This document shows, piece by piece, positions 2,317 to 45,099 of a stretch of 45,099 nucleotides of DNA. This stretch comes from a virus. The first letter of the stretch is position 1, and each line of letters begins with the position of its first letter. Below the pieces are notes generated by a model. It was not told the origin of the DNA and made no database searches. It saw nothing but the letters and a program-made list of their open reading frames with translations. The DNA is taken from the IMG/VR virus record IMGVR_UViG_3300017940_000002, positions 1 through 45,099 of that record. One strand, written 5' to 3'. The position numbers and the translations under genes were made by a program.

Positions 2317-3082
2317 ACCTACCAACGGAATTACTCCATTCAACCCCCCGAATGGAAAACCCTCCTATGAGGGGCTTAAGAAGATCGGTAAGAAGCCAAT
2401 CCTTACCGGACTCCAAGCAAGGCTTGCCTCGGCGAAGAAGGCCGAAGCCGAAGCCATCTCCAGTGGGTCGGGGTCACCCGAGACTCGTGCGAATCGACTC
2501 GCCCTTATGCTTGACGTAAGTGGTTCAATGGATGGCGAAAAGATGGATGCTCTCAAGAAGGCGACCGAAAGCTTCCTCCAATCCCTTTCGCTTGGCCCCC
2601 AAGGGGATACGTCGATTGCCTGTGAGACCTTCCCGAATAATGAGCAAAGTTCGGCAGCTTGCTACCCCTTAACCTCCGATTACACCAGAGCCCTGCTTGC
2701 AAGCTGGCAGCTCACCGTAACTGGCTTGACGCCGATGGCCCAAGCACTCGAAAAGGTCATCGAGAATTACCCTATAACTCGTGGTATTCTCATGAGTGAT
2801 GGGCAGCCCGACAGCGACCTTGCAGCCACCACACAAGCGTTGCTTTTTAAGGCTGCCGAAGTTCCGATTGACTGTGTTCACATTGGCACTTCTTCCTCTG
2901 GTGAGGAGTTCCTCAAAAGCATTGCCGAACTGACCGGAGGTCTCTTCATCAAGTTCACCGACATCGACAGCTTTGCTAAGAACTTCAAATACCTGAGTCC
3001 TAGACTTCGCCCGCTGATGTTGAGTGGAGCGGTAGGCGCAGCCGAGCTTGGCGCAAGCGAACTGAACGGGGGCACAAAGTGA
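2306..3082 (+). CDS. von Willebrand factor A (VWA) domain protein
   Basis: 258 residues. A flexible lysine/alanine-rich N-terminus is followed by a VWA domain from about residue 62. The metal-ion-dependent adhesion site is complete: D70-V-S72-G-S74, a threonine in GLTPMAQAL (T142) and D165 in ILMSDGQPD. There is no signal peptide, so it should act in the cytoplasm through Mg-dependent protein binding. Cytoplasmic VWA proteins often partner with AAA+ ATPases, and an FtsK-like ATPase lies downstream in the same operon. A partnership is only inferred from gene order. Confidence 0.88.
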   Translation: MANEPTNGITPFNPPNGKPSYEGLKKIGKKPILTGLQARLASAKKAEAEAISSGSGSPETRANRLALMLDVSGSMDGEKMDALKKATESFLQSLSLGPQGDTSIACETFPNNEQSSAACYPLTSDYTRALLASWQLTVTGLTPMAQALEKVIENYPITRGILMSDGQPDSDLAATTQALLFKAAEVPIDCVHIGTSSSGEEFLKSIAELTGGLFIKFTDIDSFAKNFKYLSPRLRPLMLSGAVGAAELGASELNGGTK

Positions 3083-3258
3083 ACTACTGCCGCTTCTGCA
3101 ACCATATCCTCACATCCACTCAGATGGTAAATGATTCTGCCGTCCTTTCCCACGGACGAACTCTCTGTACCTACTGTGGGATGAAGGCTACGGTTAGTAT
3201 GCTTGTTACCAGACCTCCGACAAAAGAATATGGAGATAAGATCAACAAGACCTCCTAA
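3079..3258 (+). CDS. Small GTG-start zinc-ribbon protein
   Basis: 59 residues. The GTG start overlaps the VWA stop (GTGA), with GGGGG upstream as a possible ribosome site. Two C-x2-C pairs (C4/C7 and C30/C33; CRFC and CTYCG) form a standard zinc-ribbon arrangement. The tail after residue 45 is lysine-rich. It is tightly coupled to the VWA gene and may be an accessory of it; the function is unknown. Confidence 0.65.
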   Translation: MNYCRFCNHILTSTQMVNDSAVLSHGRTLCTYCGMKATVSMLVTRPPTKEYGDKINKTS

Positions 3259-3785: not shown

Positions 3786-4788
3786 AGCTTCGCACTTGGG
3801 GAACATAGCGGAAGACCTTGCCTTGGCTCTTCAGGTAGAATCAGTCTTAATAAGACCCCTTCCACAGGAAGGTTGCGTTGGTATCTTCGTCCCTCGCCCT
3901 CCTTCAGAGATTAAAACGGTGATGTGGCGTGATCTTCTTGCCGCCTCTCCTGCATCACAGCGGATGATTCTCCCAATCTGCCTCGGGGTCGATTGGTTGG
4001 GTACTCCCGTATTCGACAACCTGGTTGCACTACCTCATCTTTTAGTAGCCGGCTCCACCGGAGGTGGAAAGTCTGTTTTCATGCGGAGTATCATTGCAAC
4101 AATTGTTTACAACGGAAACAATAAGATCGTACTCTCCGACACCAAGGGAGTTGAGTTCACCGAATTCATTGGAAACCCAACTCTCTGGGTAGAAACTGGC
4201 GGCGAGATCGCTACAACTCCGATGAGGACGGTGGAACAGATGGACTTGCTTTGCAAGGAGACCGACCTACGTCTCGATCTATTCGGCCGATCTGCTTGTC
4301 GGAACATCATTGAGTACAACCAGCGGTGTTCAGTCCCAGCGAGGCTGCCTTTCATCATTCTGGTAATCGACGAACTAGCTGACATCGTGTTTCTCCCTGG
4401 AGAAAAAGGAAGGGCGGCCAAAATTGGGGCGGACAAGCTTGATTACCTTACTAGAAAAGCTCGTGCTGCTGGTATTCATGTCATTGCTGGCACACAGCGT
4501 CCGTCTGTTGATACTGTCAAGGGGGTTATCAAAGCGAACTTCACGGCTCGCATTGCGTTTAAGACAGCTTCGGCAATCGACTCGAAGGTTATTCTAGACG
4601 AGACTGGGGCGGAGAATCTCCTCAAGAAAGGGGACATGCTCTACCGATCTCCCAACTTACCCGGACTCCAGCGTTTGCACAGCGGATACGCCTCTACCGA
4701 GGACATCCACGGAGCCCTAGAATTTGCTCGCTTCTCACACACCATCTCCCTCCCTGATGAGGGCGATTCAAATGGAGTTAAACAATAG
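3595..4788 (+). CDS. FtsK/SpoIIIE-like DNA translocase ATPase
   Basis: 397 residues from the ATG at 3595 (ribosome site AGGTGAAG). Residues 62-102 resemble the FtsK alpha subdomain (LALALQVESVLIRPLPQEG). The RecA-like motor follows, with Walker A GSTGGGKS near 153-160 and Walker B FIILVIDELAD near 253-263. A sensor segment THVIAGTQRPS-like (here HVIAGTQRPSVDTV) and the typical DETGAENLLKKGDML are also present. FtsK family hexamers pump double-stranded DNA. There is no transmembrane domain and no C-terminal winged-helix gamma domain, so it is probably a cytoplasmic motor without KOPS-type orientation reading. It could serve phage DNA movement, copy resolution or injection-coupled uptake. Confidence 0.88.
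   Translation: MPTQPSNEPPRNAAPQVLSPEQVKTLGVILTRSLSLGLAVKPLAQVTEGKRVTCFRMIPQGSTRASHLGNIAEDLALALQVESVLIRPLPQEGCVGIFVPRPPSEIKTVMWRDLLAASPASQRMILPICLGVDWLGTPVFDNLVALPHLLVAGSTGGGKSVFMRSIIATIVYNGNNKIVLSDTKGVEFTEFIGNPTLWVETGGEIATTPMRTVEQMDLLCKETDLRLDLFGRSACRNIIEYNQRCSVPARLPFIILVIDELADIVFLPGEKGRAAKIGADKLDYLTRKARAAGIHVIAGTQRPSVDTVKGVIKANFTARIAFKTASAIDSKVILDETGAENLLKKGDMLYRSPNLPGLQRLHSGYASTEDIHGALEFARFSHTISLPDEGDSNGVKQ
4102..4122. promoter_or_regulatory. Dispersed 21-bp palindrome, copy 1
   Basis: Left arm ATTGTTTAC, centre AAC, right arm GGAAACAAT; 8 of 9 arm positions are complementary. It lies within the FtsK-like gene. It is one of six near-identical sites (4102, 9288, 24479, 31221, 41825, 44776). 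Confidence 0.6.
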
Positions 4789-4795
4789 GAGAACC

Positions 4796-4978
4796 ATGGA
4801 AAAATTAAAAGAAGCTCTCGATGAGTACCTCTCTGCAAAAGCTGATCAGGAGAAGGCGATGTGTAGGTATGATAAGGCCCTACTCAAATTGGCTAAAGCT
4901 CTCTGCGAAGCGGGGGTGAATCTACTCCACCTCCGATTGAAGATTACCACCGACTGCGTTAGCACCATTAACAAGTAG
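4796..4978 (+). CDS. Small coiled-coil protein
   Basis: 60 residues starting at the ATG that follows TAGGAG. It is almost entirely helical with heptad-like spacing (LKEALDEYLSAKADQEKAM) and has two cysteines. No domain family is recognised. It follows the FtsK-like gene by 7 bp and is probably co-transcribed with it. Confidence 0.65.
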   Translation: MEKLKEALDEYLSAKADQEKAMCRYDKALLKLAKALCEAGVNLLHLRLKITTDCVSTINK

Positions 4979-4979
4979 C

Positions 4980-5025
4980 AATCAACTGTAAGTAATCAAC
5001 TGTAAGTTACCAACCAAAAGGTTGG
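4980..5025 (+). repeat. 14-bp tandem duplication plus hairpin
   Basis: aatcaactgtaagt occurs twice in perfect tandem (4980-4993 and 4994-5007). It is followed by the hairpin ccaacc-aaaa-ggttgg (5010-5025). This sits between two genes and could attenuate transcription or be a protein-binding site. Confidence 0.6.
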
Positions 5026-5045
5026 ATAAAGAAAGTAGGAATGAA

Positions 5046-5432
5046 ATGGCAAAGACAATCCAAGATTTATCTGATGACTTAGACATTCTTCAGCTTCGAC
5101 TCGAAGACCTCGATGGAGAAGAGCCGATCAAGATCTCCGGTATCTACTGCTGGTGCTACAGTCGTGAAGAGTTCGTGCAAACCTGCAAGCTCTTAGGAAC
5201 TACCGCTGAGCCGAACTATCAAGCAACCAACATGACCTTGACGGAAACGCTTCCTGGCGGACTCCGTATTCAAGTCCAGGTTGACTACCAATATCTTCAA
5301 GATCCAAACCGACCGAGGGTCTCGCCGTTGAGTCCCCTAAGTGAGCCACCTGCAATCACCAAATATGTGCTCGATCCTGAAATGGTGAAACTGATCGAAG
5401 GTAAGATCGGAGCAGAGCTACCAAAAATCTAG
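5046..5432 (+). CDS. Unknown early protein
   Basis: 128 residues from the ATG at 5046 (AGGAATGAA before it); an in-frame TTG at 5022 is a poorer start. The N-terminal 20 residues are an acidic helix (IQDLSDDLDILQLRLEDL). Residues 28-90 contain a mixed alpha/beta region with a CWC dipeptide motif and beta strands (GGLRIQVQVDYQ). No family is recognised. It is the last gene before the promoter of the ribbon-helix-helix regulator. Confidence 0.7.
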   Translation: MAKTIQDLSDDLDILQLRLEDLDGEEPIKISGIYCWCYSREEFVQTCKLLGTTAEPNYQATNMTLTETLPGGLRIQVQVDYQYLQDPNRPRVSPLSPLSEPPAITKYVLDPEMVKLIEGKIGAELPKI

Positions 5433-5483
5433 GAGAATCCGTAAAATGGGAGAATATATGAAAATGTGTATCCTCCTTGTTTT

Positions 5484-5493
5484 CAATAAGATA
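5484..5493 (+). promoter_or_regulatory. CAATAAGATA motif, copy 2
   Basis: caataagata ends 16 bp upstream of the TTGACA at 5510. The flanks also match copy 3 (gttttcaataagatacaag against attttcaataagataaaag). The spacing suggests an upstream promoter element or operator. Confidence 0.45.
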
Positions 5494-5509
5494 CAAGCGA
5501 AAAAGAGGC

Positions 5510-5537
5510 TTGACACGTGTGACAATCTTGCTACACT
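5510..5537 (+). promoter_or_regulatory. Promoter of the ribbon-helix-helix gene, with embedded palindrome
   Basis: TTGACA (5510-5515), a 16-bp spacer and TACACT (5532-5537). The perfect palindrome ACACGTGT (5513-5520) overlaps the -35 box, and TGACA is directly repeated (5511 and 5520), so an operator probably lies here. Transcription should start about 7 nt after the -10 box, at or within a base or two of the ATG at 5544. Confidence 0.7.
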
Positions 5538-5543
5538 AGATTC

Positions 5544-5714
5544 ATGCCAAAGCAAAACTTTATCTCCGCCCGTATCTCGTCGGAACAGGCTGCAAAGTTC
5601 CATATCAAAGTACCCCGAAGGGGTGACCGCTCTGCAATAATGCGGGAACTCCTTCGGCTTTACTTGGATGGGAAAGTTAGCGTGCAGATGCCGCGACGAA
5701 CCATCCTTACCTAG
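5544..5714 (+). CDS. Ribbon-helix-helix (Arc/CopG-like) regulator, probably leaderless
   Basis: 56 residues. The N-terminal strand FISARISSEQAAKF followed by two helices (RSAIMRELLRLYLDGKV) has the length, order and spacing of a ribbon-helix-helix DNA-binding dimer, in which the strand residues contact the major groove. No Shine-Dalgarno sequence precedes the ATG, and the -10 box ends only 6 nt upstream, so the message is predicted to be leaderless, as for lambda cI from pRM. The palindrome over its own -35 box suggests autoregulation. The stop codon lies in the hairpin ctagcc-ttt-ggctag (5711-5725), followed by ccgga-aa-tccgg and a T-rich stretch. Confidence 0.75.
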   Translation: MPKQNFISARISSEQAAKFHIKVPRRGDRSAIMRELLRLYLDGKVSVQMPRRTILT

Positions 5715-5792
5715 CCTTTGGCTAGTAAGAAGCAGACCGGAAATCCGGACATTTTATTTGTAAAATCAGCGAATTGAAAAGGCAGCGAAGCT

Positions 5793-6491
5793 ATGGCAAA
5801 TGATTTCCCATGCAAGTTTTCCACCCCTGAGCACCCGTGCCCACCTCCCAACGAATCTGGGACAGATGGGTGGTCCGATTCCAATTACATAATTTGTGAA
5901 ATCTGTCGTTCTCCAGTATGTGACCACCATATCTCCGATGCAGACCCGAATGTTTGTGTTGGTTGTTTTAATGACAACGCCCTTGCTACACAGGAACGCC
6001 CGCTGGTAGATGACGAGGGAGTGACTCATAAAGGGCGAGTTATACAACCTTTAGGGTTCACCTACAAAACCCTAATGCAACGTTTGGTGGATTACACTGA
6101 GGATGAACTGATCATTCACATTCACAGTGTAAAGCACCAGATCGAAGAAGCACAGCGAATCTTGGACTACCGTCGGCTTGATATGAGCGCCAGCTCGGTA
6201 GAGCTTGAGGATCGACAGGTTGCGAAGCGACGGAAGCTCCGCTTCCAAGGTGTCTCAAGTATCGCCAACGGAGCTAAAACAATCGCCGGACCTGATCAGC
6301 TACCATCTGCAAAGGAAAAGCAACTTCGTGCTTTAGCCTCACGGCTAAAAACTGTGGCCACCCTCCTGGGTATCCCCTGTAAAACACCGGAGGATTTGGC
6401 GAAGGTGGCTCAAGCGATAAAGGCAATTGGCGAGGCCAAGGCAAAACAAGTCCGCGTTGCGAAGCAGACTCCTCCGGAGGCAATCCAATGA
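5793..6491 (+). CDS. Cysteine/histidine-rich zinc-binding protein, unknown role
   Basis: 232 residues. The N-terminal 70 contain several metal-binding pairs (C-K near residue 7, CEICRSPVCDHH and CVGC), resembling a RING- or B-box-like cross-brace. The middle (residues 90-130) is helical, and the C-terminal 80 residues are lysine/alanine-rich helix. Preceded by AAGG. It overlaps the next gene by 4 nt (ATGA). The role is unknown; nucleic-acid binding is plausible from the charge. Confidence 0.72.
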   Translation: MANDFPCKFSTPEHPCPPPNESGTDGWSDSNYIICEICRSPVCDHHISDADPNVCVGCFNDNALATQERPLVDDEGVTHKGRVIQPLGFTYKTLMQRLVDYTEDELIIHIHSVKHQIEEAQRILDYRRLDMSASSVELEDRQVAKRRKLRFQGVSSIANGAKTIAGPDQLPSAKEKQLRALASRLKTVATLLGIPCKTPEDLAKVAQAIKAIGEAKAKQVRVAKQTPPEAIQ

Positions 6492-6718
6492 ATATCTTTG
6501 GTAGAAATCTTGGAAACGAAAGCACTCAGACCTCAGACGAGCGCCGTGCTGAGGCGAATCGAATTATTAAGATCATAATTGAGTGTGATCTTGATATGTC
6601 AGATTTAACCAGCACTGAGTCAAGTTTTGTAACACGATTAGCTGACGATCCAACCGCATCTGTATCACCAAAGCAGCTGTATTGGTTAAGGGACATCAAG
6701 TCCAAATACTGTGAATAA
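6488..6718 (+). CDS. Small protein with C-terminal QLYWLRDI motif
   Basis: 76 residues, ATGA-coupled to the preceding gene. The C-terminal half (TRLADDPTASVSPKQLYWLRDIKSKY) resembles a short phage module of the form L-x-Q-x3-L-x2-[IL]-x3-Y. The 43489-43698 protein ends the same way (PQQQILFLERLYRA), so the two may be distant paralogues. The function is unknown. Confidence 0.7.
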   Translation: MNIFGRNLGNESTQTSDERRAEANRIIKIIIECDLDMSDLTSTESSFVTRLADDPTASVSPKQLYWLRDIKSKYCE

Positions 6719-6729
6719 AGGAAAATAAA

Positions 6730-8046
6730 ATGAGTGAGTACGAAAATCCAATTCCTATTCTCCAAAGAAAGCAGCCACACGCCGGCCAGCTTTTCCAAGT
6801 CCTCCCTGATGGAAGGTGGGCTTTCTGGTTTGACAACTCGACCTCATCTACCTACACTGAGTGCCAGGAGAAGTTCCGACTCAAGAACATCGCCTTCGCC
6901 CCTCAAACTCTCCGGAGGAAAGGCTACGGCGGCGCAGCCATGTCGATTGGGTCGTGGTGGTCGAAGGTGAGCGAGAACTTCTATAAGCAGATAGCTGCTG
7001 TTCAATCACCAGCCAAAGAAGCATTGACAAGCCGATCAGTGGATATTCCACAGATGCCCACTCTCCAAGATATTATGGTAATCGCCGCTAAAGCCTGGGT
7101 AAGCGAAGGAATGGACTCTCTCCAGCTTGCCCAACCTGATAAGTACGACAAGTTTGCCATTCCAGTGGCCGCAGGCCAGCTTGGGAAATACTTCCCTCAG
7201 TCGAGCTTCGATGAAATCTTCATGGGGCTTTATCATCAAAGAGCAAGGCGTCTACGACATCAGGCTGAACAGATATTAAGTTTTCCTTACCTGGATGGAA
7301 AGGGAGTAACAGAGGAGAGGCAAGAGCAGGCTAATTTTGTAAATAGAGAAGCTCTCGCCCTCGAATCCCGCACCTCTCTCGCCCTTGGCCCCATCTTGAT
7401 GGCTGCTGAATACTACCAAAGCTTCGCCCTCCAAGACATGAAAGATTGGAAAGTGATCGGGGCAGAGCTGGCCTTTGGACGTCATGGTGAAGTCATCGTA
7501 GGAGAGACCGACAAGGTCGTGGTCTATTGGATGGGCAAACCTGACCTCGTGATCTACGAAGAAAAGACAAACTGTCTCGCCCCGCTCGACCAAAAAACAA
7601 AGGACTACATAAAAAGCGATGTCCAAAACATCTGGAAGCCCCACACCCAAACTGCCGGATACATCTACTCCATCGGGCAAATTGCCAAGGAACTCGGCTA
7701 TGACGGGATTACTGTGGATCGCTGCATTATATCTGTGTGTGGCCGCCTTCGTCCTGCTGAGCCTAGGAAGAAGGGCGATAGCCCTAAGCCTCGGTTTATC
7801 CGGGTTCGTCCTCATTATGCTGTTGAGGAGATCGCTGAGTGGCAGGCAAACATTCTGATCTTGGCAGAGCAGATGCGCACTTCTCTTGAGAAGAATCAAT
7901 GGACTCTCAACGACAAAGCCTGTCATCTCTACGCCGGCTGCGACTTCCGCGGCATTTGCTCCCGACCTGAGGGTGTGCGTCCACTGGTAATCCAATCAGA
8001 CTACGAATTGAAAGAGCCGTGGTCACCTTTCGATGACGAAGACTAA
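6730..8046 (+). CDS. PD-(D/E)XK nuclease with Fe-S-type cysteines (RecB/Cas4-like)
   Basis: 438 residues. The nuclease core is visible: D272 in GKPDLVIY, E277-x-K279 in YEEKT, then QTAGYIY as the downstream QxxxY-type motif. Cysteines C45 (TYTECQEKF), C398, C404 and C410 (CHLYAGCDFRGIC) are placed like the 4Fe-4S clasp of AddB and Cas4 nucleases, where one cysteine is N-terminal and three C-terminal. Such enzymes resect DNA ends. The Sak4-like ATPase and ssDNA-binding protein downstream suggest a phage recombination module in which this nuclease makes single strands. ATG start, preceded by AAGGAAAA. Confidence 0.85.
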   Translation: MSEYENPIPILQRKQPHAGQLFQVLPDGRWAFWFDNSTSSTYTECQEKFRLKNIAFAPQTLRRKGYGGAAMSIGSWWSKVSENFYKQIAAVQSPAKEALTSRSVDIPQMPTLQDIMVIAAKAWVSEGMDSLQLAQPDKYDKFAIPVAAGQLGKYFPQSSFDEIFMGLYHQRARRLRHQAEQILSFPYLDGKGVTEERQEQANFVNREALALESRTSLALGPILMAAEYYQSFALQDMKDWKVIGAELAFGRHGEVIVGETDKVVVYWMGKPDLVIYEEKTNCLAPLDQKTKDYIKSDVQNIWKPHTQTAGYIYSIGQIAKELGYDGITVDRCIISVCGRLRPAEPRKKGDSPKPRFIRVRPHYAVEEIAEWQANILILAEQMRTSLEKNQWTLNDKACHLYAGCDFRGICSRPEGVRPLVIQSDYELKEPWSPFDDED

Positions 8047-9925: not shown

Positions 9926-9958
9926 ATGTACTAAGTCGAAGGCTTGAGGGGGACAAGG

Positions 9959-11362
9959 ATGCCAGCAGAATCAATAAATCTCTGTGATATTATTGTAGAA
10001 GACCGAATGAGAAAAGATTATGGGGATGTGGGTGAACTTGCCTCCTCCATAAAAGAATATGGATTGATCCAACCCATTGTTCTCTCACAAACCAACCGTG
10101 GATACAAATTGGTTGCGGGAGGTCGTAGATTTGCAGCACTCTCGCTGCTTAAAATCCCATGCCTGATAAGGGGTGAGGGTTGGATTTTACGAGAAGAAAC
10201 CGAATCTGACACAAATGGACTATTAAGACTCACCGCCATTGAGATCGAAGAAAACCTAAAGAGAAAAGACCTCTCCTGGCCTGAGCAGGTTGAGGGGAAG
10301 CAACGCCTCCTCGAACTGATGCAATCCATACATGGAGGCAGCCGCGGAGCGGGAGCCCCTTCACAAAAGGAACAAGCCCTTGGTGAGACCTCCGGATTTG
10401 GTGTCCGCAAGCTCGCGGCGATGCTAGGCGAAAGCCCTGCGCTCGTGTCAAAAGACCTCCATCTGGCTACCCTGGTAAGGGCAATGCCAGTCCTTGCAAA
10501 GCAGGAATCAAAGTCCTCCGCACAGCGGATTGGAACAATCAACCTGGCGTTGCATCATATGAAGATGCAGAAAGCCAAAGTCACTATTGCTCAGGTAACT
10601 GGTGGATCAAGCTGCGTCGCCCAATTTCATGAGGATGATTCGCCGAAGTACGATCTCTTCCAAGGTGATTGGAAAGGATCAATCCATACCATACAGAACG
10701 AAGAAATAGACCTAATCTACACCGACCTCCCCTACGGGGTCGATCTTGATAAGATGGGAGCAACCGAAAATGTCAGTGCCCATGGTGGAGCAATTAGCTA
10801 TTCTGATTCTCGTGACTCTATTGTGGCTGACCTTGACACACTCGCCGAGGCAGCGTTCCGGGTGCTTAAGCCTCATCGGTTTGGTGTGTTTTTCTTTGGG
10901 TATAATTATTATATCGACCTGTGTAGGAGTCTGTGTAGGGCTGGTTTTACAATCAATGCAATCCCGGTAGTCTGGCTCAAACATCAGCAGTTCACTCAGC
11001 AACCGACCTGCCGCTACGCAAATGGATACGAACAAGCCATCATTGCTATGAAGGGCCAGCCGAAGTTCCTGCGCCCCGGCCAGGTAAACATCGTAGATGT
11101 TCCAGGACTGACTGTCGCCGGCCGTTTTCAGGTAGCCCAGCAGCCGGTCGATCTGGTGAAGCGATTCATCCTTGATATGACCCTTCCACGAAGCGGAGCA
11201 CGAGTGCTCGACTTCTATGCTGGCACCGGAACAACCGGAGTAGCTGCACTTGAACTTGGGCAATATCCAATCTTATTTGAAAAGGACGGTAATCAATGCA
11301 CGATAATTCAGAACAGGATGGAACAAGCACTCAAGCAGCAATCAGTAAGCTCGAAGAAATGA
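9959..11362 (+). CDS. ParB N-domain / HTH / DNA methyltransferase fusion
   Basis: 467 residues from the ATG at 9959 (GAGGGGG upstream). Residues 5-110 are a ParB/sulfiredoxin-fold domain with the GGRRFAA box (54-60) and ENLKRKDLSWPEQ (98-110). Residues 147-172 form a KorB/ParB-type helix-turn-helix (VRKLAAMLGESPALVSKDLH). Residues 230-460 are an amino-methyltransferase: motif IV D256-L-P-Y-G, and the SAM-binding FYAGTGTTG at 419-427 near the C-terminus, a beta-type order. Such enzymes methylate adenine N6 or cytosine N4 and can protect phage DNA from restriction. The ParB/HTH half could direct the enzyme to a palindromic site; six candidate sites are present in this genome. Confidence 0.88.
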   Translation: MPAESINLCDIIVEDRMRKDYGDVGELASSIKEYGLIQPIVLSQTNRGYKLVAGGRRFAALSLLKIPCLIRGEGWILREETESDTNGLLRLTAIEIEENLKRKDLSWPEQVEGKQRLLELMQSIHGGSRGAGAPSQKEQALGETSGFGVRKLAAMLGESPALVSKDLHLATLVRAMPVLAKQESKSSAQRIGTINLALHHMKMQKAKVTIAQVTGGSSCVAQFHEDDSPKYDLFQGDWKGSIHTIQNEEIDLIYTDLPYGVDLDKMGATENVSAHGGAISYSDSRDSIVADLDTLAEAAFRVLKPHRFGVFFFGYNYYIDLCRSLCRAGFTINAIPVVWLKHQQFTQQPTCRYANGYEQAIIAMKGQPKFLRPGQVNIVDVPGLTVAGRFQVAQQPVDLVKRFILDMTLPRSGARVLDFYAGTGTTGVAALELGQYPILFEKDGNQCTIIQNRMEQALKQQSVSSKK

Positions 11363-11661
11363 CTGCTCAACTTCGTTGGGCAAAGGATTATATCGAGAGT
11401 TTACCGATTGATCGACAGCTTGCTGATTCAGTGACTGACTACTCTGTTGCTCTTTCATTCGCAGCCACCGCAGCGCACGGATTAAATCGGAAGCTTTATC
11501 TCTTGGAGAATCCGCCCAAGGCTCAGCTTTCTATGAACGATATTATTCATCAGATGCGCCGCAGTGGAGTCACAGTCGATGATCTGAGATTAATGCTAGA
11601 GCGGCAGAGAGCCGCAAAGCAGGAGGGAGCTACCGGTGGGTTCAGCAGAGCAAGCTCTTAG
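11296..11661 (+). CDS. Small helical protein, unknown
   Basis: 121 residues from the ATG at 11296 (AAGGACGG upstream). It overlaps the methyltransferase end by 67 bp. An in-frame ATG at 11359 forms an ATGA overlap with the methyltransferase stop and is an equally possible start (100 residues). The protein is helical (EEMTAQLRWAKDYIESL) and ends in a basic segment that overlaps the UDG-exonuclease gene. No family is recognised. Confidence 0.62.
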   Translation: MHDNSEQDGTSTQAAISKLEEMTAQLRWAKDYIESLPIDRQLADSVTDYSVALSFAATAAHGLNRKLYLLENPPKAQLSMNDIIHQMRRSGVTVDDLRLMLERQRAAKQEGATGGFSRASS

Positions 11662-12895
11662 ATCACTCGCTATCGCTGCAAAGCAAACCTACGTTCCCCT
11701 TCGAGGAAACACCTCTGCTCAGATGTGTCTGATCGGAGAGGCTCCAGGTGAGAACGAGGAGCGCGAGGGTAAAGCTTTCGCAGGTGCCTCCGGTCAGCTC
11801 CTTATAGGGATGACCCGGGAGGTCGGTCTCCGCCCATCGGATTATTGGATAACCAACGTATTCAAAATCCGTCCCCCTGATAACGATCTCAAGCGGATTG
11901 ATGAGGTTGGCATCCCAACAGATTGCCACTTCATGACCTTACTAGAGGAACTTTATGCTTACAAGCCCAAGATCATTGTGGCGGTTGGAGGTACAGCCGG
12001 AGGATTCCTCTGCCCTTCAACCGTTGATCCCAAAACCGGAAGCTGCTCTGTTAGCAAATGGCATGGTTCACTTCTACGGAGTGACAAACTCAACTGGGAC
12101 CACTATGTGGTTATTATGGAACACCCAGCCTACGTCCTCAGAATGTGGAGTGAGAAACCAATTGCAACTTTCTGTCTCGCCCGAGCTAAAGAGGAACTGG
12201 AGTTTGTACTCTCGCACAACGGAAGATTGAATCCTTTACCAGATAGGAAGCTCCTCTGGAATCTAAGTCCACAAGATGCCTGCGACTGGGTGCAATCGTG
12301 CATTGATTCTCCCAATCCAGTAAGTATGGATATCGAGCTTTCGGGAAAACGAATTGGTACAAAGACATATTACTTTGGCATTGATATGATTGCACTTGCC
12401 AAAGACCCTTGGAACTCAGCAAGTATCAATCTATTTCAGTATGATGATATAAACAATGCCAAACTTTGGCGACTGCTGGATCGTCTGTTATCAGAACAAA
12501 GGATTATAGGACAGAACGAGATTGGCTTCGACGCACAGCAGTTACGTCGAATTGGCTTTGAGCCTAATGTAAATCTATGGGTTGATACAATGGTCCTTCA
12601 TCATAATCTATGGATTGAAATGCCCCATGGTCTACACTTTCTTGGCATGACTTATACTCGATCGCCCTATTGGAAGGATGATTCTAAGCTATGGACTAAG
12701 GGCGATAGTATGGAAGCTAAATCAAGATATAACGCCCTTGATGCTGCCGGGACTTATGAGGTTTGCATTAAAGAACTTGAGGAGTTAGCAGAAAGGATTG
12801 GATATGATCAAAGAAGAGCACGAATTCTGGAAGATGGTGGACATGAAATCAACACCCAACGGCTGCTGGAATTGGGTTGGCCCAATGCGTCCTGA
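11636..12895 (+). CDS. Uracil-DNA glycosylase-like domain fused to polymerase 3'-5' exonuclease
   Basis: 419 residues from a GTG start. Residues 30-195 resemble family 4/5 uracil-DNA glycosylases: GEAPGENEEREGKAFAG (34-50), ITNVFKIRPP (72-81), and EHPAYVLRM (162-170) in place of HPSY-L. The N-terminal cysteine pair that binds Fe-S in family 4 is absent. Residues 228-385 are a DnaQ-like exonuclease of the family A polymerase type: D232-x-E234, NEIGFD (294-299), D317 and YNALD (365-369). The last 30 residues are read out of frame from the inserted HNH gene and are probably not part of the original protein. The polymerase domain follows as 13184-14677 in the same frame. Confidence 0.85.
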   Translation: MGSAEQALRSLAIAAKQTYVPLRGNTSAQMCLIGEAPGENEEREGKAFAGASGQLLIGMTREVGLRPSDYWITNVFKIRPPDNDLKRIDEVGIPTDCHFMTLLEELYAYKPKIIVAVGGTAGGFLCPSTVDPKTGSCSVSKWHGSLLRSDKLNWDHYVVIMEHPAYVLRMWSEKPIATFCLARAKEELEFVLSHNGRLNPLPDRKLLWNLSPQDACDWVQSCIDSPNPVSMDIELSGKRIGTKTYYFGIDMIALAKDPWNSASINLFQYDDINNAKLWRLLDRLLSEQRIIGQNEIGFDAQQLRRIGFEPNVNLWVDTMVLHHNLWIEMPHGLHFLGMTYTRSPYWKDDSKLWTKGDSMEAKSRYNALDAAGTYEVCIKELEELAERIGYDQRRARILEDGGHEINTQRLLELGWPNAS

Positions 12896-13187
12896 TGGAT
12901 ATGGAAGGATGGGAAGGGCAAGAGCCCACCGTTTAGCTCTTATCTTCTGTGGACATCGACTTGGACCCTTAGATGATGGTCATCATGTGTGTGAGAATCG
13001 AGGATGTGTTCGTGTTCATCCGGACCACGTTGTAATATCTAACTATAAACATAGGGGAAAAGCAAAAAAAGATAAAACTCATTGTCCGAGGGGTCATGAA
13101 TACAATGAGAGAAACACATATATTGATGGGAAGGGCTATCGCCAATGCAGAGTTTGTAAGTTGGCATGGTATCATAATCAGAAATGA
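12804..13187 (+). CDS. HNH homing endonuclease inserted in the polymerase gene
   Basis: 127 residues from the ATG at 12804. Features typical of phage HNH_3 homing endonucleases: CWNWVGPMRPDGYGR, AHRLAL, DDGHHVCENRGCVRVHPDH (the HNH core with two zinc-binding cysteines) and a C-terminal ribbon CPRGHEYNERNTY...CRVC. It makes site-specific DNA breaks that allow its own gene to spread to empty alleles. It sits exactly between the exonuclease and polymerase ORFs, which are in one frame while this gene is in another. Its stop overlaps the start of the polymerase ORF (ATGA). The insert is about 380 bp, all coding, so there is no room for a group I intron. Confidence 0.9.
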   Translation: MIKEEHEFWKMVDMKSTPNGCWNWVGPMRPDGYGRMGRARAHRLALIFCGHRLGPLDDGHHVCENRGCVRVHPDHVVISNYKHRGKAKKDKTHCPRGHEYNERNTYIDGKGYRQCRVCKLAWYHNQK

Positions 13188-14677
13188 TGAATTTATTAGA
13201 GTTCGCCCACTACCCCCAACGACTCGCTCGCGCCTTCTACCAGATCGAGCAGCGAGGTATCTTAGTTGATCAACCAAAGCTTTCAGCTTTAAGGAGCCAC
13301 ATCCTAGATGAAATCGACAAACGCTGTGATGAGTGCGAAACGATCCTTGGAGCTTCGGTGGCTAGCTGCGAAAAGGCAGAGAGCGGCCGACGGAATGTTA
13401 AAGCCGTGGCAGCGGACCGCAATCTGCGCAAGACAGATGTTATCAACATCGGCTCTCCTCAACAACTCATCTCTATATTCGAAGCTCGCGGTATTAAGAT
13501 TCCAAAGAAACGTGGGGCGAAGAAGAACGGCGTCTATGTTGCGGGTAAGCAAAGCCTCGATGAAGAAGCGTTACTTCGCATTGCTCTCGATAACAAACAG
13601 GATAAATTGCCAGGTTTGATCCTAAAAGTCCGAGAACTTAACAAGATGAGGGGAACCTACGTTGACACAAAACTCTACCAAGATCAACTTTTCTGTGCCT
13701 ATAAGGTCACAGGGACAGAGACTGGACGCCGATCCTCTCAAGAAAATTGCTTTGGATTCGGAACTAATGGTCAGAATATTCCAAAGCATACCCATCTTGG
13801 TCTCCTCTTTAGAGAATGTTTGCGAGCAAGACCTGGCCATATCTTTATCGAAGCTGATCAAAAAGGTGCCGAGGACTGGTTGGTTCAAGGTATCATTGTC
13901 GATAACGGTGGAAGCCATGACGGACTCAACGACCTCTTGTCTGGAACAAATCGTCACGCGAAGCTTGCCGCCCGACTCTTCAACCTCAACGCTGCAGAAG
14001 TAAAGAAGCATAAAGGGGCCGGCGAGAAGTACGAGATTCAATACTACTGCGGAAAGAAAACCCGGCATGCCGGGAACTATGGGATGGCCGCTGACCGGAT
14101 GTCCATCGTCCTCTTGGTAGAAGCTGGTTTGAACATGCCCCCAGCCTACACGGAGTGGCTCCTCAAGCAATTCCACTCTATCGAACCAGACATTCAAGGA
14201 GTATTCCATCAATATGTCGAACAACAACTTAACTCCACTCGCCGTCTGGTTACTCCCCTCGGACGAGAGAGGGTCTTTTTTGACCTCCGACCGGGCAGCA
14301 ACAATGCTGACACTTATAGAAAAGCATATGCCTTTATCCCACAATCAAGCGTTGGGGATAATACAGGACTTGCAATCTGCCAACTTGTTGAGTCTGGATA
14401 CCCTGTCATTCAGGACAATCATGATGCGATTACCCTTGAAGTCCTTGACAATGATGAGGCAATCCTTGACGGTATTCGCGCTCTTGAACGCTCCTTCGAT
14501 CGAACCATGCAGTTCCCTAACGGAACCGAAGTAAAGATTCCCCTAGAAGTAATGGTTGGATATAATTTGAAAGACCTCAAACAATGCCCAGACTCTTGCA
14601 CAATGGATGGATTGAGACCTATACTTCAACAGTTGCGAGCTACTCTGATTCCCCGGACAACTACCATCTGTGGGTAG
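13184..14677 (+). CDS. Family A DNA polymerase, polymerase domain
   Basis: 497 residues. It opens at the point where Pol I-like proteins continue after the exonuclease (LARAFYQIEQRGILVD). The thumb/palm signature TGTETGRRSSQE (177-188) and NGQNIPK follow. Motif A is EADQKGAED with D225, motif B KKTRHAGNYGMAADRM with Y299-G300, and motif C QDNHDAI with H413-D414. All three catalytic motifs are intact, so the split enzyme may be functional as two chains. Translation probably depends on coupling to the HNH gene, since only the ATGA overlap and no good ribosome site precede it. The last 30 residues overlap the next gene. Confidence 0.92.
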   Translation: MMNLLEFAHYPQRLARAFYQIEQRGILVDQPKLSALRSHILDEIDKRCDECETILGASVASCEKAESGRRNVKAVAADRNLRKTDVINIGSPQQLISIFEARGIKIPKKRGAKKNGVYVAGKQSLDEEALLRIALDNKQDKLPGLILKVRELNKMRGTYVDTKLYQDQLFCAYKVTGTETGRRSSQENCFGFGTNGQNIPKHTHLGLLFRECLRARPGHIFIEADQKGAEDWLVQGIIVDNGGSHDGLNDLLSGTNRHAKLAARLFNLNAAEVKKHKGAGEKYEIQYYCGKKTRHAGNYGMAADRMSIVLLVEAGLNMPPAYTEWLLKQFHSIEPDIQGVFHQYVEQQLNSTRRLVTPLGRERVFFDLRPGSNNADTYRKAYAFIPQSSVGDNTGLAICQLVESGYPVIQDNHDAITLEVLDNDEAILDGIRALERSFDRTMQFPNGTEVKIPLEVMVGYNLKDLKQCPDSCTMDGLRPILQQLRATLIPRTTTICG

Positions 14678-15810
14678 GAGCAACTGTAATAGGAGCCTCT
14701 CTCAAGAGAAGAGTTTGGTTTGAGAGGGGAACCTACAAACTATTCCCTAACCTATTCACAATCCTCGTAGGTCCGCCTGCGGTAGGGAAAGGAGCTGCAC
14801 TTGGCCCAGGAGTTCGGATCATTAAAAAAGCCCTCACTGCCAACATCCTCTCCGATCGGATCACGATGGAGTGGTCTAAGGAGACATTGGCTAAGGGATT
14901 TTCTGCTCCGCCGCGTACTGGTCCCGGAGGGATTACGTTTAATCAGGATGCTTCTTGCCTGTTTGTGGCCCCGGAGTTAGGAGTTTTCATCCGACATCCT
15001 GAGGAGGAACTACCTGACCTGACGCACCTATGGGATTGTGAGACCAACAACTACGCCACCCGAGGAAAGGGACTTTTCATAATCACCGATCCATGTCCCT
15101 CAATGCTTGCGGGCTGTGCCCCAACTTGGCTAAAAGACTCAGTACCACAAGACGCGATTGGAGGAGGATTTACTCGGAGGGTAAACTTTGTATACGCCCC
15201 GAAGCAGAAGTACCTCAACACCTGGCCATCCCAAATTGATTGGGATGTTATCACTGCTCCACTTGTGAATGACCTTGTTGAGATTACCAAGATGCGAGGT
15301 GAATACAAATGTGACAACCTGGCCCGCCCGATATTTGAGAGGATGTACCGGGAGTCGGAGCATATCACCGACTTCTCTGACGAGGCCACGACGAACTATA
15401 CGGCATCGCGGTGGGCTAATACAATTAAGATGGCGATGTGTATTGCTGCTTCGCGGAAGGACGACCTTGTGATTCTAAAAGACGAACTACAGGAGGCTGA
15501 TGATTACACAACCGATGTAAAGAATGAACTAAAGCAGGTCTTTCGATCTGTCGGCTCTAGTGATATGATGGGCGCCGCAGACAAGGTTCTCAAGTTTATC
15601 GAGAACTCCGGCAGCTGCACCATCAATCAGTTGATGAACGCGGTATGGAGAGACTGCTCTCGACCAGAGCTTGACGTGATTCTCGTGACGCTACGGGATG
15701 CCGGTCTTGTCGATGAAACTAATCTACAGAATCGAACGGTCTTGAGGTGCAAAGCAACCGCAGGTGTTCCTAGCGGAGCGGCTAAGGCACAGAAGTTTGG
15801 AATCTATTAA
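14584..15810 (+). CDS. DUF3987-like P-loop protein (putative helicase/primase-associated ATPase)
   Basis: 408 residues. NYHLWVGATVIGASLKRRVWF followed by LFPNLFTILVGPPAVGKGAAL has the layout of DUF3987-type proteins, with a Walker A of GPPAVGKG in which the usual T/S after GK is glycine. Later segments (ASCLFVAPELGVFI, DLTHLWDCE) may hold the Walker B and sensor regions. A C-terminal winged-helix-like part (INQLMNAVWRDCSRPELDVIL) could bind DNA. Its position after the polymerase suggests a role in replication initiation or unwinding. It overlaps the polymerase gene by 94 bp. Confidence 0.72.
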   Translation: MPRLLHNGWIETYTSTVASYSDSPDNYHLWVGATVIGASLKRRVWFERGTYKLFPNLFTILVGPPAVGKGAALGPGVRIIKKALTANILSDRITMEWSKETLAKGFSAPPRTGPGGITFNQDASCLFVAPELGVFIRHPEEELPDLTHLWDCETNNYATRGKGLFIITDPCPSMLAGCAPTWLKDSVPQDAIGGGFTRRVNFVYAPKQKYLNTWPSQIDWDVITAPLVNDLVEITKMRGEYKCDNLARPIFERMYRESEHITDFSDEATTNYTASRWANTIKMAMCIAASRKDDLVILKDELQEADDYTTDVKNELKQVFRSVGSSDMMGAADKVLKFIENSGSCTINQLMNAVWRDCSRPELDVILVTLRDAGLVDETNLQNRTVLRCKATAGVPSGAAKAQKFGIY

Positions 15811-44835: not shown

Positions 44836-45099
44836 ATGCGTAAAGCATTTTCATGCCTTGTTGACATCGACGCAAAAAGAGTGACGTGGAAATTAGGCGT
44901 CGATGCGCACTTCGAACTGGTCGCGCTCGGGGGATACAAAGACGACACGGCTGACTCGCGCAAAATGTTGTTTGCCAAAATTGAGATCACTCCAAAGAAC
45001 GGCGATTACCTGAACCCGGATGAGTGGGTATACCGGGTTGACGAATCTCCTACTCCGATGTGGATTGGTCGAGAGCACGAGGAGGCTTGCCGGAGAGCA
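44836..45099 (+). CDS. Wrap-around tetrapeptide-repeat protein, N-terminal part
   Basis: Starts at the ATG after AAAGAGG and continues in frame through the contig end into 1-678. The first 75 residues form a compact domain (LVDIDAKRVTWKLGVDAHFE, RKMLFAKIEITPKNG, DEWVYRVDE) typical of small phage proteins with an added repeat. Only the part from 44836 to 44976 is unique; the rest is the repeated end. Confidence 0.85.
   Translation, partial: MRKAFSCLVDIDAKRVTWKLGVDAHFELVALGGYKDDTADSRKMLFAKIEITPKNGDYLNPDEWVYRVDESPTPMWIGREHEEACRRA
44977..45099. repeat. Terminal overlap, copy 2
   Basis: Identical to 1-123; the unique genome is therefore 44,976 bp. Confidence 0.9.

Follow-up and report, generated by a model that had tools for sequence, protein, structure and literature searches.

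The stretch of viral DNA analyzed here (hereafter, the window) comprises positions 1 to 45,099 of the IMG/VR record IMGVR_UViG_3300017940_000002 and is bounded by an exact direct terminal repeat of 123 bp (positions 1-123 and 44977-45099), so that the record probably represents a complete genome of about 45 kb. A search for near DNA matches among phages returned none for the window. The open reading frame (ORF) list and profile matches place a split family A DNA polymerase at positions 11636-14677, on the plus strand, as are the junction elements and neighboring genes of the window described below. Two ORFs in frame 2, the N chain (11636-12895) and the polymerase itself, or C chain (13184-14677), are separated by an HNH endonuclease ORF in frame 0 (12804-13187) that shares a 92-nt overlap with the N-chain ORF and whose stop codon (TGA, 13185-13187) overlaps the polymerase start codon (ATG, 13184-13186) in an ATGA sequence (13184-13187). 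This layout agrees with an earlier, sequence-only reading of the window, in which the exonuclease and polymerase ORFs were assigned to the same frame and the HNH gene to another, with the ATGA overlap at the polymerase start. The locus is flanked by two conserved neighbors identified by profile matches, a gene encoding ParB_N and N6/N4 DNA methylase domains upstream (9944-11362) and a DUF3987/primase-like gene (phrog_14296) downstream (14584-15810).

The N chain starts with a GTG codon located 9 nt downstream of an AGGAGG sequence and combines a family-4 uracil-DNA glycosylase (UDG) domain (approximately residues 16-175) with a DnaQ-like 3'-5' exonuclease. Membership in the family-4 UDGs is indicated by the matches to Pfam UDG (PF03167, E = 1.4e-22) and TIGR00758 (E = 1.6e-28; 99.6 bits, below the curated cut-off of 125.3), along with the presence of the GEAPG and HPx motifs. 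The exonuclease matches DNA_pol_A_exo1 at an E value of 1.5e-4, slightly below the Pfam cut-off, and retains its motifs (DxE in MDIELSG, GQNEIGFD and YNALD). The exonuclease had been recognized in the sequence-only reading, and the UDG domain had been missed. The final 30 residues of the N chain (Tyr390 onward, from nt 12803) are the HNH gene translated out of frame.

The C chain, with 497 aa, is a complete polymerase domain. It matches DNA_pol_A (E = 9.3e-20) and contains motifs A (EADQKGAEDW), B (KKTRHAGNYGM) and C (NHD), and its homologous sequence begins at about residue 3 (nt 13190). When modelled alone (pLDDT 91, pTM 0.89), it adopts the complete polymerase domain fold, matching KlenTaq and Klenow, and in the profile alignment with Klenow the match begins at residue 203 of the fragment, close to where the exonuclease domain is known to give way to the polymerase domain. 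With motifs A, B and C and the polymerase fold all present, the C chain belongs to the family A DNA polymerases. The exonuclease motifs reside on a separate chain rather than on the polymerase polypeptide; a 3'-5' exonuclease on the same polypeptide is usual in the proofreading members of family A and is not required of the family. Taken across both chains, the exonuclease motifs and polymerase motifs A, B and C are all found, as had been claimed for the catalytic motifs.

The HNH gene (12804-13187) encodes a 127-aa protein with a C-terminal Cys/His cluster that matches phrog_826 (E = 3.2e-20) and has many phage homologues. It does not match Pfam HNH_3 up to E = 1, whereas the HNH proteins of two related loci (L020 and L113; loci of the family are numbered in this way throughout) do. 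Both histidines of the HNH motif are kept, and a two-residue insertion occurs at the position of the expected asparagine (CVRVHPDH replacing CVNPDH), given which the window HNH may be inactive; Clavibacter HNH homologues likewise lack the asparagine (CVRPDH). The best start is the ATG at 12804, 6 nt downstream of an AAGGA (12793-12797) that is the likely Shine-Dalgarno sequence and starts within the polymerase reading frame at the junction; a TTG at 12798 is an alternative start.

Insertion point and proposed origin of the split

The sister lineage of the window polymerase (L003, 51% identical and found on other contigs too) encodes a single uninterrupted ORF of 895 aa, and the nearest relatives of the window are 51-55% identical. 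The alignment with uninterrupted relatives that the sequence-only reading had proposed maps the break between two adjacent profile columns: column 381 is the last matched by the N chain and column 382 the first matched by the C chain, so nothing is missing at the break. In the AlphaFold model of L003 (pLDDT 90), the break falls after Arg411, in the loop 411-413 that joins the last exonuclease helix (383-410) to the first polymerase helix (414-433). Because an uninterrupted relative exists and the insert is a recognizable HNH gene, the split is not a chance occurrence. In having an intact homologue in a relative and an endonuclease gene precisely where the reading frame is broken, the locus resembles the genes split by free-standing homing endonucleases (Aeh1 nrdA type).

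The inserted unit can be delimited to 390 bp (12795-13184) between two copies of a CAGAAA repeat, the left one at 12789-12794 and the right one at 13179-13184. When this unit is omitted, the flanks join in frame (ELAEMMNLLEF), with the same length as in the intact relatives L018 and L019. A 6-bp match of this type is found by chance in about 10% of random zone pairs, and the repeat at the insertion point is weak, merely supporting evidence for insertion.

We consider it likely that a free-standing HNH gene was inserted into the loop of an intact UDG-exonuclease-polymerase gene, yielding two cistrons and, without splicing, two working chains. Under this scenario, the 390-bp unit would have entered the three-residue exonuclease/polymerase loop and left the gene as two cistrons of a single mRNA. 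Translation of the HNH gene would rely on the Shine-Dalgarno sequence at the junction, and the polymerase start would be reached by reinitiation at its ATGA overlap with the HNH stop. The polymerase start lacks a Shine-Dalgarno sequence of its own, which, together with the overlap, suggests translational coupling; start/stop overlaps occur alike at several other splits in relatives. No RNA or protein splicing would be involved. The enzyme would be produced as two polypeptides, one carrying the UDG and exonuclease and the other the polymerase, divided close to the point where Klenow passes from its exonuclease to its polymerase domain. In Klenow, the polymerase domain retains its function when the exonuclease domain is absent, and hence reunion with the N chain need not be required of the C chain; the C chain is probably active alone, and the exonuclease chain would proofread in trans or by docking. 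For the window, then, we infer expression, activity and assembly of the two chains and homing of the insert.

Recurrent splits in related polymerases

Profile-guided scans yielded a census of approximately 170 loci (124 distinct at 95% identity), the majority of which consist of one uninterrupted ORF; the scanned bacterial genome contigs contributed one distant relative only. Three places account for the splits in the census. Site 1, at the exonuclease/polymerase hinge (columns ~379-386), includes the window, L016 (with L017 and L100), L020, L105, L106, L113, L114 and the distant L007. Site 2, within the exonuclease domain and ahead of the Exo III motif (columns ~342-355), is represented by Caulobacter phage Kuura (L010) and L077. 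Site 3 follows the NLQN motif (548/549), within the polymerase domain, and is found in Vibrio phage VS-ABTNL-3 (L012), L063 and L093; by profile alignment, the published OM43 phage MEP401 shares this site (column 548; PMC10580990). One further candidate for site 2, L071, was doubtful and was dropped, given that its in-frame TAG codon may be read as an amino acid. This codon lies in the polymerase gene, at 5300-5302, and translation of TAG as Gln gives a more open frame across the locus, so the phage may use a recoded stop.

Random placement does not give this three-site clustering: ten random positions fell within three intervals of 15 in 0 of 200,000 trials, and four within one interval of 8 in 2 of 500,000, figures that are not to be pressed exactly, as the ten events taken included the doubtful L071. 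The contents of the junctions vary. At site 2, Kuura (4001-7405) carries two hypothetical ORFs and L077 (2186-4642) has no insert, and the site-3 junctions (L012, 4662-5216; L063, 6604-6640; L093, 6356-6753) are occupied by an unknown ORF, left empty, or filled by an HTH ORF whose tail weakly matches an HNH family. In L007 (phage MW202554), a NrdR-type zinc-ribbon ORF (2878-3138) is located at the exonuclease/polymerase hinge and overlaps the polymerase start in a TGATG sequence.

Within the close clade that includes the window, the 18 distinct polymerases comprise 7 split ones, each broken at site 1 and within about 7 columns of the hinge, and 11 intact ones; the outgroups are intact as well. 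The tree of both domains requires at least four changes of split state, three of which are forced by the starred branches alone, and the AU test rejects a tree that keeps the split polymerases together (p = 6.5e-24), a grouping that was chosen from the split state and not from the tree. Because the outgroups are intact, repeated fission at the hinge is the simplest reading; the pattern may alternatively reflect an early fission followed by several re-fusions within the close clade.

The hinge is occupied differently from one split member to another: by the HNH gene in the window, by an HNH gene and an unknown ORF in L020, by an HNH gene and an ASCH-like ORF in L113, by the ASCH-like ORF alone in L105 and L106 (weak Pfam matches), and by nothing in L016 and L114. 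Thus, the HNH gene is not the general cause of hinge splits, given that hinge splits recur among relatives, often with no HNH gene present; the sequence-only reading, whose attribution of the window split to the HNH gene is supported, had not included this recurrence or the exact hinge position. L016 shows another arrangement at its junction (6080-6150), shared by L017 and L100, near-identical contigs from different samples with the same frame change. The split lacks an insert, and the polymerase frame opens inside the N-chain gene; its translation may use an ATT start preceded by GGAGG or a +1 frameshift at CCT TAG C.

These relatives bear on the best surviving alternative, namely, that other causes had already split the gene of the window at the hinge and that the junction was colonized by the HNH gene later. 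The splits that are empty (L016/L017/L100 and L114) or hold only the ASCH-like ORF (L105 and L106) are compatible with this order of events, as are two comparisons within the clade. The ASCH-like ORF is common to L113 and L105, with the HNH gene present only in L113, in front of that ORF; similarly, the new polymerase N-terminus LNFRDPG is common to L020 and its split sister L114, and only L020 carries an HNH gene. Judged from these shared features, the HNH gene looks later than the split in both groups. An origin from a gene already split was also left open for phage 25 gp43 (PMC2988022). A pre-existing split in the window is disfavored, however, by the uninterrupted gene of its sister L003 and by the precision of the insert, a single in-frame unit that neither removed nor added residues at the hinge. 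Furthermore, every other N chain split at site 1 in the close clade has its own stop codon at the junction; that of the window runs into the HNH gene without one, a feature that favors direct insertion. A later arrival of the HNH gene in the window thus appears unlikely, and insertion into an intact gene is the reading we prefer. For this phage clade, we regard as evenly balanced the proposition that the hinge is a recurrent fission point at which two-chain polymerases arise repeatedly and persist, with HNH genes and small ORFs mostly settling there afterwards rather than causing the splits.

Splicing, decay and artefact as alternatives

A group I (or other) intron carrying the HNH ORF, spliced out to give one polymerase as in SPO1-type phages, is very improbable. 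HNH-carrying examples in family A phage polymerase genes are cited in PMC10580990, but in the window the HNH coding sequence fills almost all of the 390-bp unit, and the polymerase has its own ATG within the stop/start overlap. Rfam searches of the window at gathering scores detected no introns, the junction gave no relevant match up to E = 10, and the insert RNA folds no better than shuffled sequences (z = 0.05). The judgment that a group I intron is unlikely, made earlier from the coding density of the insert, is borne out by these results.

Decay of a dispensable polymerase, with the split abolishing function, is just as improbable. In pairwise comparisons of split relatives, dN/dS was 0.07-0.15 in both halves, compared to 0.11-0.12 in intact controls, with some dS values close to saturation. 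Because these values are like those of the controls, the split halves appear to be maintained, and in the relatives, they are under purifying selection. The comparison covers pairs of split relatives and not the window chains, whose nearest relatives are too far removed (51-55%), which leaves some room for decay in the window itself; nevertheless, its exonuclease and polymerase motifs are all kept, there are no stops or frameshifts, and the C chain is modelled as complete.

A split intein (fractured gene) joining the two chains by protein splicing has a precedent in the PolB of phage MIJ3, whose halves are separated by an HNH gene (PMC6892783), and is nonetheless hardly conceivable here: the broken ends provide just 30 out-of-frame residues after the N chain and about 2 before the C chain, leaving no room for intein halves, and the intein-like insertions of the family (L076 and L173) are in frame, ~290-320 aa long and located at polymerase motif B. 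Rfam, RNA folding and profile columns give no sign of an intron or intein around the endonuclease gene of the window. The in-frame insertions, which we read as inteins, belong to two distant members of the family, L076:4977-8354 and L173:4594-7857, the latter with a LAGLIDADG match and on a contig filed as a Nealsonbacteria MAG. In these two genes, elements in catalytic motifs appear to splice out, unlike those at the hinge. Finally, an assembly or sequencing artefact in this single metagenomic record has a negligible probability, given that the insert reads as a coherent HNH gene and has numerous homologues in phages, the hinge is split in independent contigs, including the near-identical L016/L017/L100 from different samples, and the 123-bp terminal repeat is as expected of a complete assembly.

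Comparison with other split phage genes

Phage genes split by HNH genes are already known, and the version at the UDG-exonuclease/polymerase hinge is new among the open-licence literature, in which we found no description of such a split or of a recurrent hinge, a result that does not by itself prove novelty, and nothing relevant on UDG-polymerase fusions. In SPO1-type Bacillus phages, group I introns with HNH ORFs reside in family A polymerase genes; the window resembles them in having an HNH gene within such a polymerase gene, but those genes are spliced, and the window has no intron features. The PolB of phage MIJ3, likewise a polymerase split with an HNH gene between its parts, differs in that a split intein rejoins the protein (PMC6892783), whereas no intein halves are present in the window.

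In Aeromonas phage Aeh1, nrdA is split by mobE, an HNH gene inserted at a site critical for function, and its two chains have to come together again; T4 gene 60/mobA is another endonuclease-split phage gene (PMC2988022). The analogy with Aeh1, drawn in the sequence-only reading, is apt in that an HNH gene divides an essential gene of nucleotide or DNA metabolism into two chains without splicing, and is otherwise loose. The critical region and required reassembly of Aeh1 contrast with the inter-domain loop of the family A polymerase; because the cut in the window lies between two domains, the polymerase chain may work without rejoining. The OM43 phages MEP401 and MEP402 also encode their family A polymerase as two ORFs separated by a small one (PMC10580990), although without a UDG domain, with the break inside the polymerase domain (site 3, column 548) and with an unknown small ORF at the break.

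In Aeromonas phages 25 and 44RR, gene 43 is split into 43A and 43B; the chains of phage 25 co-purify and are active, and an endonuclease gene lies at the break (PMC2988022). As in the window, a phage replicative polymerase is made in two chains, but there it is a family B polymerase with a seg (GIY-YIG) gene, and here a family A polymerase with an HNH gene. Endonuclease genes may break host genes or enter ready-made breaks, and for phage 25 gp43, the cited review leaves either order of split and endonuclease open (PMC2988022). The clade described here contains intact, split-empty and split-occupied versions of one essential gene at a single hinge, making the order of events traceable, and the window would offer a naturally occurring proofreading polymerase in two chains, divided close to the exonuclease/polymerase boundary of Klenow.
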